In this document: positions 3,241 through 16,685 of the stretch, in pieces
Position numbering within the stretch: the first letter of the stretch is position 1
Layout: each line of letters starts with the position of its first letter
From: Arcobacter venerupis
GTDB lineage: Bacteria > Campylobacterota > Campylobacteria > Campylobacterales > Arcobacteraceae
Assembly (NCBI RefSeq): GCF_013201665.1
Contig: NZ_CP053840.1
Location: 62,001-126,000, forward strand
DNA: 64,000 nt
Reading direction: 5' to 3'
Program-made: the position numbers and the translations under genes
Notes under the pieces: generated by a model
Database searches by the model: none
Told to the model about the DNA's origin: nothing
The model's input: only the letters and a program-made list of their open reading frames with translations

Positions 3241-4572
3241 ATGGTTGAAAGATACGCTAGAGTTGAAATGAGTTCAAAGTGGACTCAAGAAGCAAGATAT
3301 GCAGCATGGTTAGAAGTAGAAAAAGCTGCTGTTAAAGCTTGGAATAAAATTGGACTTATTCCCGATGCTGATTGTGAAAAAATAATAAAAAATGCTACTT
3401 TCTCAGTAGAGCGAATTGAAGAAATCGAAGCTGTTACAAAACATGACTTAATTGCATTTAATACAAGCGTATCTGAATCTTTAGGTGAAGAATCAAGATG
3501 GTTCCACTATGGAATGACATCTTCTGATGCTGTTGATACGGGTGTAGCTCTTCAAATGAGAGACTCTTTAAAAATAATTATTGAAGATGTGAAAATGCTA
3601 ATGGAGTCTATTAAAACAAGAGCCTATGAGCATAAAATGACTTTAATGGTTGGAAGAAGTCATGGTATTCACGGTGAGCCAATAACTTTTGGTTTAACTT
3701 TAGCTGTTTGGTATGATGAAGTTGCACGTCATCTTTTAAATCTTGAACAAACAATGGAAGTTATAGCAGTTGGACAAATCTCAGGCGCTATGGGTAACTT
3801 TGCCCACGCACCACTTGAACTTGAAGAGTATGCAATGGCAGAACTTGGGTTAAAACCAGAACCTTGCTCAAATCAAGTAATCCATAGAGATAGATATGCA
3901 AGACTTGCAACGGCTTTAGCACTACTTGCATCTAGCGTTGAAAAATTTGCAGTTCAAGTAAGACACTTACAAAGAACAGAAGTTTATGAGTGTGAAGAGT
4001 ATTTTGCAAAAGGTCAAAAAGGATCTTCTGCAATGCCTCACAAAAGAAATCCAATTTTAACAGAAAACATAACTGGACTTGCAAGAATGATTAGATCATA
4101 TGCAATTCCTGCTATGGAAAATGTTGCTTTATGGCACGAAAGAGATATTTCTCACTCTTCAACAGAGAGATTTTGGTTACCAGATGCCTTTATTACAAGT
4201 GATTTTATGTTACACAGAATGAATAGTGTAATTGCAAATTTAACTGTAATGCCAGAAAATATGATGAAAAATTTAAACTTAACTGGTGGATTAGTATTCT
4301 CTCAAAGAGTATTACTTGAGTTACCACTTGCAGGTGTTTCAAGAGAAGATGCCTATAGAATTATTCAAAGAAATGCGATGAAAGTTTGGGAAGAGATTCA
4401 ACATGGAAAACCAACAACAAATGAAAAAGGTGAATCTTTATACCTTCAATACCTTTTAGCAGATGAAGAATTAAGAAATTCATTATCTGAAGAACAAATA
4501 AGAGAATGTTTTAACTTCGAATACTATACAAAAAATGTGGATAAAATTTTCAACAGAGTATTCAAAAAATAA
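3241..4572 (+). CDS. purB: adenylosuccinate lyase
   Basis: Cleaves SAICAR and adenylosuccinate with release of fumarate, in de novo purine and AMP synthesis. The fumarase/aspartase superfamily signature SSAMPHKRNP is at about residues 262-271, with catalytic-loop serines just before it. TSSDAVDTG and GRSHGIHGEPITFG are the other two active-site regions. Length of 443 fits the family. Start at the ATG after AAGGGAC with about 6 bases spacing. It is followed 24 bases later by nrdA in the same direction, so the two nucleotide-synthesis genes may be co-transcribed. Confidence 0.97.
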   Translation: MVERYARVEMSSKWTQEARYAAWLEVEKAAVKAWNKIGLIPDADCEKIIKNATFSVERIEEIEAVTKHDLIAFNTSVSESLGEESRWFHYGMTSSDAVDTGVALQMRDSLKIIIEDVKMLMESIKTRAYEHKMTLMVGRSHGIHGEPITFGLTLAVWYDEVARHLLNLEQTMEVIAVGQISGAMGNFAHAPLELEEYAMAELGLKPEPCSNQVIHRDRYARLATALALLASSVEKFAVQVRHLQRTEVYECEEYFAKGQKGSSAMPHKRNPILTENITGLARMIRSYAIPAMENVALWHERDISHSSTERFWLPDAFITSDFMLHRMNSVIANLTVMPENMMKNLNLTGGLVFSQRVLLELPLAGVSREDAYRIIQRNAMKVWEEIQHGKPTTNEKGESLYLQYLLADEELRNSLSEEQIRECFNFEYYTKNVDKIFNRVFKK

Positions 4573-4596
4573 TATAAGATACTACAAGGTAAAATT

Positions 4597-6981
4597 ATGG
4601 GAATTATGATAAAAAAAAGAAATGGTCGCAAAGAAGTTTTAGATATTACTAAAATTCAAAAAATGACTGTGGAGGCAACTGAAGATTTAGATGGTGTCTC
4701 TCAAAGTGAACTAGAACTTGATGCTCAAATCAAATTTATTGATGGGATGAGTTCTTCTGATATTCAAGATGCACTTATTAAAACAGCCGTTGAAAAAATT
4801 GATATAGATGTTCCAAATTGGACATTTGTAGCAGCTCGTCTTTTTGTTTTTGATTTATATCACAGAGTTGGAAAAGCAACTCATGGGATAAAAGGTGAGC
4901 CATATTGCCATTTAAGAGATTATTTGAAATATGGAAAAGACGCAGGAAGATTAATTCCTAGTCTTGGTGAAGGTTACGATTTAGATGAATTAAATGATTA
5001 TATTGACCCTAAAAGAGATTTCTTATTTAACTACTTAGGAATCAAAACTTTATATGATAGATATTTAATTAAAAACAATAAAGCTGAACCAATCGAGTTA
5101 CCACAACATATGTTTATGGCAATTGCAATGTTTTTAGCTCAAGATGAAGTTAATAAACAACAATGCGCAAAAGAGTTTTATGATGTAGTTTCTAAATTTG
5201 AAGTAATGCTTGCCACTCCAACTTTATCAAATGCTAGAACAAATAGACACCAATTATCTTCTTGTTATATTGGAAGTTCTCCTGATAATATCGAGGGAAT
5301 TTTTGATGGTTACAAAGAGATGGCACTATTATCTAAATTTGGTGGAGGAATTGGTTGGGATTGGAATCAAATCAGAGCTTTAGGTGGTGTTATTGATGAC
5401 CACAAAAGTGCTGCTGGTGGAACAGTTCCATTCTTAAAAATCACAAATGATATAGCACTAGCAGTTGACCAATTGGGTACAAGAAAAGGTGCAATTGCCG
5501 TTTATCTTGAACCTTGGCACATGGATATAGTTGACTTTATTGACTTAAAGAAAAACTCTGGTGAAGAAAGAAGAAGAGCTCACGATTTATTCCCTGCTTT
5601 ATGGATAACTGATTTATTTATGGAGAGAGTTTTAGAAGATGCTCATTGGACTTTATTTGACCCTTATGAAGTAAAAGACTTAAGTGAGTGTTATGGTGAT
5701 GAATTCAAAGTAAAATATATTGCTTATGAAAATGATGAGTCTATTACAAAAAATGTGATGAAAGCAAAAGATTTATGGAAAAAAGTTTTAACTTCATATT
5801 TTGAATCTGGAAGTCCATTCTTATGTTTCAAAGATACAGCAAATAGAGCAAATCCAAATTCGCATGTTGGACATATTAGAAGCTCAAATCTTTGTACAGA
5901 GATTTTCCAAAATACAAATCCAAACTATTACAAAATCAGACTTGAGTTTGTAGATGGAACAGTTTCTACTTATGAAGAAGAAGAGTTAATTGTTGTTGAT
6001 GGTGGAATCACTAAAAAAGCAAATAAAGTTTCTGCTCTTGATAGTATTAATGGAAAAAGAGTATTTATTGTTGAAAAAGAAAAAATTGATGGAGATACAG
6101 CTGTTTGTAACTTAGCTTCTGTAAATCTTTCAAGAATTAATACAAAAGAAGATATTGAAAGAGTTGTTCCAATAGCTATTAGAATGCTTGATAATGTTAT
6201 TGATTTAAATTTCTATCCATTAAGAAAAGTAAAAGCTACAAACCTAAAATCAAGAAGTATTGGTTTAGGTGTTATGGGTGAAGCTGAAATGTTAGCTGAA
6301 TACAAACTTGTTTGGGGTTCAAATGAACACTTCAAAAAAATCGACCAAATTATGGAAGCAATTTCATATAATGCAATCAAATCAAGTTCAAATATAGCAA
6401 TAGAAAAAGGTATTTACCCTACTTTTGAGGGTTCTAAATGGTCTTTAGGAATTATGCCACATGACCACGCTCCTCAAGCTGTAAATGCACTTGTAAATAA
6501 AGATTTATTTGATGCTTCTTACGATTGGGATGAATTAAGAGCAAAAGTTAAAAAAGATGGAATGAGAAATGGTTATTTAATGGCCGTTGCTCCAACTTCA
6601 TCTATTTCAATTCTTGTAGGAACTACACAAGCAATAGAACCAGTTTACAAAAGAAAATGGTTTGAAGAGAACTTATCAGGATTAATTCCAGTTGTTGTTC
6701 CAAAACTAAGTCCTGAAACTTGGAATTATTATACTCCTGCTTTTGAAATTGACCAATTACAAGTAATTAAAGCAGCCGCAATTAGACAAAAATGGATAGA
6801 CCAAGGTCAATCAACAAATATTTTCATGAGCTTAGATAAAGCAAGTGGAAAACATCTACATGAAATCTATACATTAGCTTGGAAATTAGGACTTAAATCA
6901 ACATATTATTTAAGAAGCCAATCACCAGAAGCAAAAAATGATGTAGAAGACAGATCTATGGAGTGTAGCGGTTGTCAATAA
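4597..6981 (+). CDS. nrdA: class Ia ribonucleoside-diphosphate reductase, alpha subunit
   Basis: Reduces ribonucleoside diphosphates to deoxy forms. The N-terminal 90 residues match an ATP-cone allosteric domain (IKKRNGRKE start). Then come the barrel motifs: SSCYIGSSPDN with the first redox cysteine, SNLCTEI with the thiyl-radical cysteine, AVCNLASVNLS with the partner cysteine, and PTSSISILVGTTQAIEP. The C-terminal tail ends CSGCQ, the mobile cysteine pair that passes electrons from thioredoxin or glutaredoxin. 794 residues is normal. Start ATG has AAGG 7 bases upstream. nrdB follows 75 bases downstream. The enzyme is oxygen-dependent; no class III nrdD is seen in this window. Confidence 0.97.
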   Translation: MGIMIKKRNGRKEVLDITKIQKMTVEATEDLDGVSQSELELDAQIKFIDGMSSSDIQDALIKTAVEKIDIDVPNWTFVAARLFVFDLYHRVGKATHGIKGEPYCHLRDYLKYGKDAGRLIPSLGEGYDLDELNDYIDPKRDFLFNYLGIKTLYDRYLIKNNKAEPIELPQHMFMAIAMFLAQDEVNKQQCAKEFYDVVSKFEVMLATPTLSNARTNRHQLSSCYIGSSPDNIEGIFDGYKEMALLSKFGGGIGWDWNQIRALGGVIDDHKSAAGGTVPFLKITNDIALAVDQLGTRKGAIAVYLEPWHMDIVDFIDLKKNSGEERRRAHDLFPALWITDLFMERVLEDAHWTLFDPYEVKDLSECYGDEFKVKYIAYENDESITKNVMKAKDLWKKVLTSYFESGSPFLCFKDTANRANPNSHVGHIRSSNLCTEIFQNTNPNYYKIRLEFVDGTVSTYEEEELIVVDGGITKKANKVSALDSINGKRVFIVEKEKIDGDTAVCNLASVNLSRINTKEDIERVVPIAIRMLDNVIDLNFYPLRKVKATNLKSRSIGLGVMGEAEMLAEYKLVWGSNEHFKKIDQIMEAISYNAIKSSSNIAIEKGIYPTFEGSKWSLGIMPHDHAPQAVNALVNKDLFDASYDWDELRAKVKKDGMRNGYLMAVAPTSSISILVGTTQAIEPVYKRKWFEENLSGLIPVVVPKLSPETWNYYTPAFEIDQLQVIKAAAIRQKWIDQGQSTNIFMSLDKASGKHLHEIYTLAWKLGLKSTYYLRSQSPEAKNDVEDRSMECSGCQ

Positions 6982-13728: not shown

Positions 13729-13751
13729 AGAGAATAAATTCTCTTTATTTT
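13722..13751. terminator. bidirectional terminator between CYTH gene and hcp
   Basis: Perfect 13-bp stem AAAATAAAGAGAA / TTCTCTTTATTTT with a TAAA loop, between convergent genes. U-rich on either strand. Confidence 0.85.
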
Positions 13752-15075
13752 AAGCGATTAGAAGTTTTGCTAAATCATCTTTTGCATTTGTTGTAAGTGT
13801 AAGATTGAAGTTTTCTGCTAAGAAGTTGAAAATATCTTCATTTACAAATTGTGGAGGTTTTGGCCCTAAGTAAATATTTTTTATTCCAAGTGAGAATAGA
13901 GCTAATAAGACAATAATAGCTTTTTGCTCCATCCACGATAATACAATTGAAATTGGTAAATCATTGATTGGAGTATTTAATGCTTCGCTTAAAGCTTTAG
14001 CAATTTCAACTGCACCATTTGAGTCATTACATTGACCTAAGTCTAGGTATCTAGGAATTCCAGTTCCTTCAATCTCTCCAAAATCAATATCATTGAATCT
14101 GAATTTACCACAAGATGAAGTGATGATTACACAATCTTTTGGTAAAGATGAAGTTAATTCTCTATAATATTCTCCACCTTTCCCTGGTGCATCACAACCA
14201 GCAACTACGAAGAATTGTTTGATTTTCCCCTCTTCTAATGCTTTTAAAATTTGTGGAGCTAAAGTTAAAACTGTTTTATAGTGATGACCAGTTGTTAATG
14301 TTGTAGTTTCATTAAAATCAATTCCATTTGCATCTGCGCACTCTAAAGTTCTTTTGATTAAAGCATCAAAGTTATCATTTTCAATAGGAGTTGAACCCTC
14401 AACACCTACGATTTTGTAAGTGAATAATCTATCTAAATATCCACAATTTTTCTTTGGAGGAACAATACAGTTTGTATTTACTACAAAAGTTCCAGGGAAT
14501 TTTTCCATCAGTTTTGCTTGGTCAAACCATGCTTTCCCAACATTTCCTTTTAGGTGTTTATATTTTCTTAGTTCTGGATAACCATGAGCTGGTAACATTT
14601 CAGAGTGTGTATAAACATTAATTCCTTTATCTTGTGTTGCTATTAACAATCTTTCAAACATCTCTAAATCATGTCCAGAAACTAAGATAGCTTTCCCTTC
14701 AACTTTGTTTTGAGAAACAGTTACGGGAGTTGGAATACCAAATTTATTAGTGTGAGTATTTGATAATCTATCCATTACTAAACTTCCAGCTCGTCCAATT
14801 TTCATTAGTTGATTGATGTGGTCGTTAAAATTAAAATTCACATTTGTAAGTGTAAAATAAAGCGTTTCACTCATAACATCATCAATTTCTTTTGTAAGTT
14901 CAGGTTTAAATGTATTTAAATGCTCTCTATATGCACTAAGACCTTTTAAACCAAAAATCATAATATCTTGTAATCTTGAAAGATTTTCATCTTTCCCACA
15001 AGTTCCAACAACTGCACCAGTACTTCCACAACCACCTTTTTGACTCATTTCACATTGATAACAAAACATACTCAT
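13750..15075 (-). CDS. hcp: hybrid cluster protein (NO/hydroxylamine reductase), short form
   Basis: Hcp reduces nitric oxide or hydroxylamine and can transnitrosylate proteins. The N-terminus MSMFCYQCEMSQKGGC-x9-C gives the first Fe-S cluster. The hybrid-cluster ligands appear in SGHDLEMFERL, NTNCIVPPKKNCGY, VAGCDAPGKGGEYY and SCGKFRFN. At 441 residues it is over 100 shorter than the common 540-550-residue forms, missing most of the second helical segment of domain 1, as in the short (class III) Hcp proteins. The promoter holds a perfect FNR/CRP-type palindrome at -41.5 and a TATAAT. No hcr reductase gene is adjacent. Confidence 0.95.
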   Translation of the reverse strand: MSMFCYQCEMSQKGGCGSTGAVVGTCGKDENLSRLQDIMIFGLKGLSAYREHLNTFKPELTKEIDDVMSETLYFTLTNVNFNFNDHINQLMKIGRAGSLVMDRLSNTHTNKFGIPTPVTVSQNKVEGKAILVSGHDLEMFERLLIATQDKGINVYTHSEMLPAHGYPELRKYKHLKGNVGKAWFDQAKLMEKFPGTFVVNTNCIVPPKKNCGYLDRLFTYKIVGVEGSTPIENDNFDALIKRTLECADANGIDFNETTTLTTGHHYKTVLTLAPQILKALEEGKIKQFFVVAGCDAPGKGGEYYRELTSSLPKDCVIITSSCGKFRFNDIDFGEIEGTGIPRYLDLGQCNDSNGAVEIAKALSEALNTPINDLPISIVLSWMEQKAIIVLLALFSLGIKNIYLGPKPPQFVNEDIFNFLAENFNLTLTTNAKDDLAKLLIA

Positions 15076-15103: not shown

Positions 15104-15109
15104 ATTATA
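15104..15109 (-). promoter_or_regulatory. -10 hexamer of hcp
   Basis: TATAAT on the minus strand. With transcription starting 7 bases on (about 15097), the FNR-type palindrome centres at -41.5. The hcp leader would be about 22 bases and contains AAAAGGA. Confidence 0.7.
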
Positions 15110-15131
15110 TGGTTTTAACAGATGTGATACA

Positions 15132-15145
15132 TTGATACAAATCAA
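15132..15145. promoter_or_regulatory. FNR/CRP-family palindrome shared by hcp and the 86-residue gene
   Basis: TTGATACAAATCAA, a perfect TTGAT-N4-ATCAA site. Its centre (15138.5) is 29.5 bases from the near edge of TATAAT on the hcp side (15109) and 29.5 bases from TATAAA on the other side (15168). Both are class II activator positions (-41.5). The regulator could be FNR-like, DNR/NssR-like or another Crp/Fnr protein; it is not encoded in this window. Confidence 0.8.
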
Positions 15146-15167
15146 TACTTGTTTATGTTTTGTAAGT

Positions 15168-15173
15168 TATAAA
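15168..15173 (+). promoter_or_regulatory. -10 hexamer of the 86-residue gene
   Basis: TATAAA on the plus strand, placed as the mirror image of the hcp -10 about the FNR-type palindrome. The predicted start is about 15180, leaving a leader of about 31 bases that ends in AAAAGGATTATT before the ATG. Confidence 0.6.
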
Positions 15174-15210
15174 ATCCTAGAATACGAACTTTAAAATAAA
15201 AAGGATTATT

Positions 15211-15471
15211 ATGTCAAAAGATAGAATTAGAGATTTTATAGATATTCAATTTGAAAATTTAGAGGATCCTATTTATAAAATTGAAGAAGATGAGAATCAT
15301 GTTTATGCAATTTTCACAGAAGTTTTAAGTAAAAATGTATCTAAGGAGATAACTTTTAAAATATTAAATGATATTTTATATCTACATTCTGTAACTTATG
15401 GTTGGAAACCAGTAGAAAAAGGGAATGCAAATAAATATTTTTGGATTGAACTTTTAAAAACAGAAGCCTAA
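15211..15471 (+). CDS. unknown 86-residue protein, divergent from hcp and sharing its FNR-type site
   Basis: A small acidic cytoplasmic protein with no cysteines, no signal peptide and no membrane segment. Alternating short strands and helices (VYAIFTEVLS, EITFKILNDILYLHS, KYFWIELL) suggest a compact alpha/beta fold. I do not recognise a family. Strong ribosome binding site AAAGGA with a 6-base gap. Its promoter mirrors that of hcp about one FNR/CRP palindrome, so it is probably induced together with the NO/hydroxylamine reductase. It is convergent with the GltD-like gene, whose stop overlaps this one by 4 bases. Confidence 0.8.
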   Translation: MSKDRIRDFIDIQFENLEDPIYKIEEDENHVYAIFTEVLSKNVSKEITFKILNDILYLHSVTYGWKPVEKGNANKYFWIELLKTEA

Positions 15472-16685
15472 GAAGCTACTGTTTTTGCTGGAAGTTTAGA
15501 AATAAACTCTTCAATAGACAAAGCAACTCTTTTAGAAAAGGCAACAGCTTCTACAACAGTTCTGGCACCGGTAACCACATCACCAGAAGCAAATACACCA
15601 CGTCTAGCTGTTATTCCATTTTCATCACTTTGTAGTAGTCCATTTTCGCCTAAAGATAATCCAGTATTATTTCTTACAATTAAATCCCTTGCTGTTTGAC
15701 TAATTGCAATTAATATAGAATCAGCTTCTTCAAAACTTTCTCTATTTACTTCTTGATCTGTTGTCATATATCTAATGCCTTTTTCTGTTAGTTCTAAAGG
15801 TAATTTGTGAAGATTGAATTTTACACCATCTATTTTTGCATGGTCAATTTCCATTTTTTCTGCATGCATATCTTCTTCACCTTTTCTATACATTAGTGAA
15901 ACATCATTTGCACCATTTCTAATGGCAGTTCTTGCAACATCCATGGCAACATTTCCAGCACCAATTACAACAACTTTTTTGCCTAAATCGTAAGCTTTTG
16001 GAGTTTTTAGATAATCAATCGCAAAGTGAACATTTCCAAGACTTTCGCCTTTGATTCCTAGTTTTTTAGGTGCCCAAACACCTGTTCCTATAAATATCGC
16101 ATCAAAGCCATCTCTTTGTAAATCATCAAGGGTGATATTTTTCCCAATCATGATATTTTTTCTAATCTTAACCCCTATTTTTTTTAGCTTATCTTCTATT
16201 GTGTCTAAGATAGTTTTGTCAAGTCTAAAATCAGGAATACCATATCTTAAAACACCGCCGATTTGGTTGTTCCCTTCATACATAGTTACATTGTAACCTT
16301 TTATAGCCATTATCATTGCAAGACTAATTCCAGCAGGTCCTGAGCCAATGATTGCTATGTTTCTACCCTTTTGAATTGGTTTTTCAAACTCCCTATAATT
16401 CATATAATAAGTTGAGATATAGTTTTCTATTCCACCTACATTTACGGGAGTCGATTTTTTATTTAAAACACAATGTCCTTCACAATGCTTTTCATGTGGA
16501 CAAACTAAAGAACAAACAATTGATAAAGGATTATTATCAAATACTAATTTCCCTGCTTCTTTGATATTTCCACTTAAAAAAAGTCTAATCATTTCTGCAA
16601 TTGGAGTGCTAACAGGACAACCTGTTTGACACTTAGGTTTTTTACAATCTAGACAAGTTTGCGCTGAATTTATTATATGTTGCAT
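15468..16685 (-). CDS. GltD-like NAD(P)H oxidoreductase (glutamate synthase small-subunit family)
   Basis: 405 residues. The N-terminus has the paired cysteine clusters of the GltD/DPD family (CLDCKKPKCQTGCPV, then CSLVCPHEKHCEGHC), which bind two [4Fe-4S] centres. A FAD dinucleotide fold follows (GSGPAGISLAM near 114), and an NAD(P) fold (GAGNVAMDVAR near 245). The final ASGDVVTGARTVVEAVAFS is the FAD-binding end. No glutamate synthase large subunit is nearby, so it may donate electrons from NAD(P)H to another partner, and its position beside the hcp locus makes Hcp one candidate. That link is only positional. Confidence 0.88.
   Translation of the reverse strand: MQHIINSAQTCLDCKKPKCQTGCPVSTPIAEMIRLFLSGNIKEAGKLVFDNNPLSIVCSLVCPHEKHCEGHCVLNKKSTPVNVGGIENYISTYYMNYREFEKPIQKGRNIAIIGSGPAGISLAMIMAIKGYNVTMYEGNNQIGGVLRYGIPDFRLDKTILDTIEDKLKKIGVKIRKNIMIGKNITLDDLQRDGFDAIFIGTGVWAPKKLGIKGESLGNVHFAIDYLKTPKAYDLGKKVVVIGAGNVAMDVARTAIRNGANDVSLMYRKGEEDMHAEKMEIDHAKIDGVKFNLHKLPLELTEKGIRYMTTDQEVNRESFEEADSILIAISQTARDLIVRNNTGLSLGENGLLQSDENGITARRGVFASGDVVTGARTVVEAVAFSKRVALSIEEFISKLPAKTVAS

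Follow-up and report, generated by a model that had tools for sequence, protein, structure and literature searches.

The gene for the hybrid cluster protein, hcp, and a gene for an 86-residue protein (ORF86) diverge from each other in Arcobacter venerupis with a perfect TTGAT-N4-ATCAA palindrome midway between them. Does this site control both genes, or hcp only? An earlier note on this DNA had argued for both, with TATAAT of hcp and TATAAA of ORF86 each placed so that the palindrome is at -41.5 of either promoter. We analyzed the window, the whole 64-kb stretch of DNA around the locus, and compared the locus across a set of 104 Arcobacteraceae genomes. The features discussed, including a regulator gene outside the window, are:

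13750-15075, minus strand: hcp, hybrid cluster protein / hydroxylamine reductase, 441 aa, with matches to TIGR01703, PF03063 and PDB entries.
15104-15109, minus strand: the hcp -10 box, TATAAT (ATTATA on the plus strand), 29.5 bases from the palindrome centre, with the site at -41.5.
15132-15145, centre 15138.5, no strand: TTGATACAAATCAA, a perfect TTGAT-N4-ATCAA and putative Crp/Fnr-family (Dnr/Nss-type) site of the hcp promoter.
15168-15173, plus strand: TATAAA, the mirrored -10 box of the earlier note, 29.5 bases from the centre.
15178-15183, plus strand: TAGAAT, most likely the true ORF86 -10 box, of the form TAnAAT conserved in relatives.
15211-15471, plus strand: ORF86, an 86-aa protein of an Arcobacteraceae-restricted family with a predicted alpha-beta5-alpha fold.
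15468-16685, minus strand, convergent with ORF86: a GltD-like NAD(P)H/FAD oxidoreductase with a Fer4_20 domain, 405 aa.
G000:C1:3115083-3115727 (locus L091, to 3115755): a candidate Dnr/Nss-type Crp/Fnr regulator, 215 aa, with a perfect TTGATGTCAATCAA at its own promoter.

The palindrome, TATAAT and TATAAA are all present where the earlier note had placed them, each box 29.5 bases from the centre. The palindrome is the sole perfect copy in the window. Genome-wide (G000) there are 27 perfect copies, 22 of them inside open reading frames, against seven for the reversed control pattern. This excess together with conservation at hcp puts the palindrome beyond chance. A perfect copy precedes 19 of the 20 hcp genes found in the 104 genomes, 59-77 bases from the start codon, and the twentieth has a copy with one mismatch. 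The spacing from centre to TATAAT is exactly 29.5 bases at 14 of the 20 loci, or at 15 if TACAAT is counted. ORF86 does not face hcp at 11 of the 20 loci, and the palindrome is still there (ten perfect, one with a mismatch). In the nine genomes where hcp is divergently adjacent to ORF86, the sequence from the palindrome through TATAAT of hcp aligns without gaps, the columns of the TATAAT are invariant and the hcp-side spacing is constant. The hcp-side evidence spans five genera and is independent of the probable kinship of the hcp-adjacent genomes. With both the palindrome and the hcp -10 box conserved, the comparison supports the earlier reading of the palindrome as a Crp/Fnr-family site centred at -41.5 of the hcp promoter. 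Regulation of hcp through it is well supported by this conservation.

Across relatives the region upstream of hcp retains the palindrome and TATAAT, as the note's proposal predicted, but neither the TATAAA on the other side nor ORF86 as a constant neighbor. TATAAA is 29.5 bases from the centre in two of the nine hcp-adjacent genomes, the window and G004, and at other distances in the remaining seven; the symmetric -10 box and the -41.5 geometry claimed for ORF86 are thus confined to these two. Shared class II activation of hcp and ORF86 was rejected for this lack of conservation, though in the window and G004 the palindrome could additionally activate ORF86. Over the nine aligned loci the length of the ORF86 side differs by up to 12 bases. 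The element conserved before ORF86 is TAnAAT followed by AC or AG, about 32-34 bases before the ATG, and in the hcp-adjacent loci it lies 38.5, 39.5, 44.5 or 50.5 bases from the palindrome centre. G032, with hcp elsewhere in the genome, has a near-identical ORF86 promoter element, GGTATAAAAACATAAAATACGCG, and no palindrome, and a similar box is found at many other ORF86 loci in genomes without hcp. According to the passage of PMC3824568 that cites Petersen et al. (2003), C. jejuni promoters have a T-rich periodicity of 10-11 bases upstream of the -10 box, and a TATAAA 10 bases upstream of TAnAAT is what such a periodicity would lead one to expect. In G001, G006, G010 and G015 a gene on the same strand closely precedes ORF86, which may be transcribed from an upstream promoter in these genomes.

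The earlier note had called the mirror symmetry hard to explain by chance. The geometry is indeed present in the window, but a TATAAT-like hexamer falls at the exact mirrored position in 4.1% of shuffles, and within one base of it on either side in 12%. A and T make up 80% of the 65 bases from the palindrome to ORF86, among which five hexamers match TATAAT at five or more of the six positions. Given these hexamers and the shuffle frequency, the symmetry is weak evidence.

We also examined how ORF86, hcp and the palindrome are distributed. Relatives of ORF86 are encoded in 34 of the 104 genomes. Nineteen genomes encode hcp by our survey; the twentieth is G017, where the 5' end of hcp lies beside ORF86 at a contig edge. 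Both genes are found in 14 genomes, while 20 of the 34 with ORF86 lack hcp and six of the 20 with hcp lack ORF86, a distribution at variance with the proposal that ORF86 is a partner in the Hcp system. The earlier note had tied that proposal to the small gene lying beside hcp in relatives; ORF86 is not divergently adjacent in 11 of the 20 hcp genomes, and is absent from six of those 11. The palindrome is upstream of ORF86 in all nine genomes with divergently adjacent hcp and in none of the 25 without, even allowing one mismatch, within 150 bases. The Fisher value for this contrast, 1.9e-8, counts too many events as independent because the nine genomes are probably one clade, so that the contrast approximates one evolutionary event and not 34.

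Where hcp is missing from the genome, ORF86 still occupies the same chromosomal block. Usually an OmpA-like gene and one for 130-163 aa come after it, and often the GltD-like gene as well. The gene in front of ORF86 there encodes a cytochrome c, a CYTH protein, a 137-aa protein or a PocR/GAF/GGDEF protein. At loci L046, L047 and L050 (G027, G008 and G030; about 3930-5900) a protein of 652-653 aa is encoded opposite ORF86 in the place of hcp, and its L046 copy has the domains PocR-PAS-GAF-GGDEF. In the 13 genomes that allowed a measurement on a single contig, ORF86 and hcp are 136 bases to 2.6 kb apart, in at least three arrangements; G017 is the fourteenth genome with both. Co-occurrence of the two genes is above expectation (Fisher p 0.0003, without correction for relatedness). 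Of the signs of a link that are left, the closeness of the genes is the strongest. Descent of the block from a common ancestor accounts for it with no need for a shared function, and a shared function is also compatible with it.

Taken together, we give a probability of about 0.85 to the reading that the palindrome is an hcp activator site for a Dnr/NssR-type regulator and that ORF86 is a separate gene with its own promoter and no conserved dependence on the palindrome. A Dnr/NssR-type Crp/Fnr protein without the FNR iron-sulphur cysteine cluster, probably responsive to NO or nitrogen oxides, would bind TTGAT-N4-ATCAA at -41.5 and recruit RNA polymerase to the TATAAT at 15104-15109, as in class II activation. 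ORF86, fast-evolving and restricted to the family, would face hcp by happenstance in one clade and be read from its TAnAAT promoter at 15178-15183.

Two other readings join the genes more closely. One dimer could act as a bidirectional switch with class II activation of both hcp and ORF86, the latter serving in nitrosative stress or Hcp maturation. This would fit the exactly mirrored boxes of the window and G004, the closeness of the genes (within 2.6 kb in the 13 measurable genomes and adjacent in G017) and their co-occurrence beyond expectation, uncorrected for relatedness as that value is. We consider it quite unlikely, as the geometry is lost in seven of the nine hcp-adjacent genomes, the palindrome is missing at ORF86 in the 25 others, each gene occurs without the other (20 of the 34 ORF86 genomes, six hcp genomes) and a mirrored hexamer has a 4% chance. 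The co-induction proposed in the earlier note is likewise not supported for ORF86, with the palindrome at 0 of the 25 copies lacking adjacent hcp and 20 of the 34 in genomes with no hcp. Co-regulation could instead be limited to the clade: hcp and its site arrived or stayed beside ORF86, and in some strains ORF86 is raised as a by-product without shared function. With the site 38.5-50.5 bases upstream of the ORF86 TAnAAT, contact between dimer and polymerase is possible in some arrangements. However, the spacings to the presumed ORF86 start (about 50.5, 51.5, 56.5 and 62.5) do not share one helical phase, and this speaks against ORF86 activation having been selected. We consider this reading quite unlikely too.

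For the preferred reading, an hcp activator site, the 215-aa Crp/Fnr protein is a candidate master of a nitrogen-oxide regulon. The TTGATGTCAATCAA precedes its start by about 21 bases, and a palindrome with at most one mismatch is found at 27 of the 30 regulator homologues examined. The protein has the cNMP-binding domain PF00027 (E 1.2e-12) and the HTH_Crp_2 domain PF13545 (E 2.3e-13), a recognition helix PETFSR of the E..SR type and a single cysteine (Cys94), without the FNR-type N-terminal cysteine cluster. Divergent from it, and likewise preceded by an intergenic palindrome, is a gene of the YgbA_NO 'nitrous oxide-stimulated promoter' family. The other intergenic palindromes (L073, L086, L092) precede genes for a NIT-domain protein, an Aer2-like methyl-accepting chemoreceptor and a bacteriohemerythrin. 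The NIT domain is nitrate/nitrite-sensing. The position of these palindromes suggests that taxis and NO defence are under a common regulator. From this probable regulon we infer heme/NO sensing by the protein, with NO or nitrogen oxides as the probable signal. Near G000:C1:520100-520700 the genome encodes another Crp/Fnr protein of the E..SR type, so the 215-aa protein is a candidate rather than the established regulator. Matches to the 215-aa protein are found in 90 of the 104 family genomes, many just 31-42% identical; the hcp-bearing G041 and G127-G129 have homologues of 37-41% identity only. A 2019 review states that A. butzleri has no FNR/CRP-family regulator (PMC6682613), with which the 90 matches are at odds.

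The palindrome at hcp is of an already known type, a Crp/Fnr (Dnr/FNR-box) activator site. DNR sites have the consensus TTGATnnnnATCAA, and one precedes hcp in Acidithiobacillus ferrooxidans (PMC1274295). The DNR regulon of denitrifiers (Pseudomonas and β-proteobacteria) shares with Arcobacteraceae the same FNR-box consensus upstream of hcp (PMC1274295); both regulons, that of Arcobacteraceae probably, concern nitrogen oxides, and the candidate Arcobacteraceae regulator also lacks the FNR cysteine motif. However, its alignment with the PDB's DNR protein is weak (E 8.6e-5), and YgbA_NO, hemerythrin and chemoreceptors make its probable regulon unlike that of DNR. The Dnr-type proteins NssR of C. 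jejuni and NssA-C of Wolinella resemble it in phylum, Crp/Fnr family and nitrogen-oxide response. The C. jejuni NssR site is TTAAC-N4-GTTAA, different from TTGAT-N4-ATCAA in Arcobacteraceae. Nitrogen-oxide respiration in Campylobacterota is controlled by the Dnr-type NssA/B/C (PMC6682613, PMC11539149), and the palindrome-bearing set in Arcobacteraceae agrees with these regulators and with the known DNR sites (PMC1274295).

The Hcp of the window matches TIGR01703 with E 2.7e-160 and 534 bits, above the curated cut-off of 361. It is short, lacking about 110 residues in its N-terminal part when compared with the 553-aa PDB Hcp. The spacing of its N-terminal cysteines is C-X2-C-X7-C-X9-C, against C-X2-C-X7-C-X5-C in the closest PDB relative. 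We found no Hcr-like gene adjacent to hcp, in agreement with the earlier note. The GltD-like neighbor was considered as an Hcr substitute and rejected: it is found in genomes without hcp and is absent or degraded beside some hcp genes, and is no obligatory partner of Hcp. In G014 (L055, 6255-6518) it is an 87-aa remnant while the adjoining hcp and ORF86 are intact.

ORF86 is a real gene, as its dN/dS of 0.03-0.29 (leaving out the G008/G030 pair, which has a frame error) indicates purifying selection and eight residues are invariant across 23 sequences. Despite this selection it diverges far faster than hcp, with 77% identity against 98% (G000 versus G004 or G022). Among 397 genomes of the phylum it is absent from families other than Arcobacteraceae. 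Searches against Pfam, NCBIfam and the sequences of the PDB brought no significant match, with none in Pfam up to E 1, bearing out the earlier statement that the protein has no recognised family. Two AlphaFold2 models agree on a helix, five strands and a helix (pLDDT 90 and 91.5), and a fold search with both gave no match below E 0.05. The top rows, frataxin, PBP N-terminal and NTF2-like folds, are tied with Z under 5. Frataxin/CyaY, among the top Foldseek rows, has a like order of elements, but at E 0.37-0.9, TM about 0.4 and VIA Z 4.6-4.8 it is level with unrelated folds, and the resemblance is no evidence of kinship to frataxin. The PF01491 profile matches neither ORF86 nor anything else in the genome, and the search of relatives likewise turned up no frataxin gene. 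Starting from this result and from all 14 genomes with both genes keeping them close (at most 2.6 kb where measurable), one could imagine ORF86 as an Arcobacteraceae-only, possibly frataxin-like helper of Hcp or other iron-sulphur enzymes in nitrosative stress, with other clients in genomes lacking hcp; we regard this as very doubtful.

ORF86 stands as a lineage-specific, uncharacterised family, and comparison of Arcobacteraceae genomes assigns the palindrome to hcp. Short AT-rich boxes mirrored around a palindrome are no ground for co-regulation unless compared across genomes. For the Arcobacteraceae, the sites point to a probable nitrogen-oxide regulon of hcp, YgbA_NO, bacteriohemerythrin, two chemotaxis-type sensors and the regulator itself.
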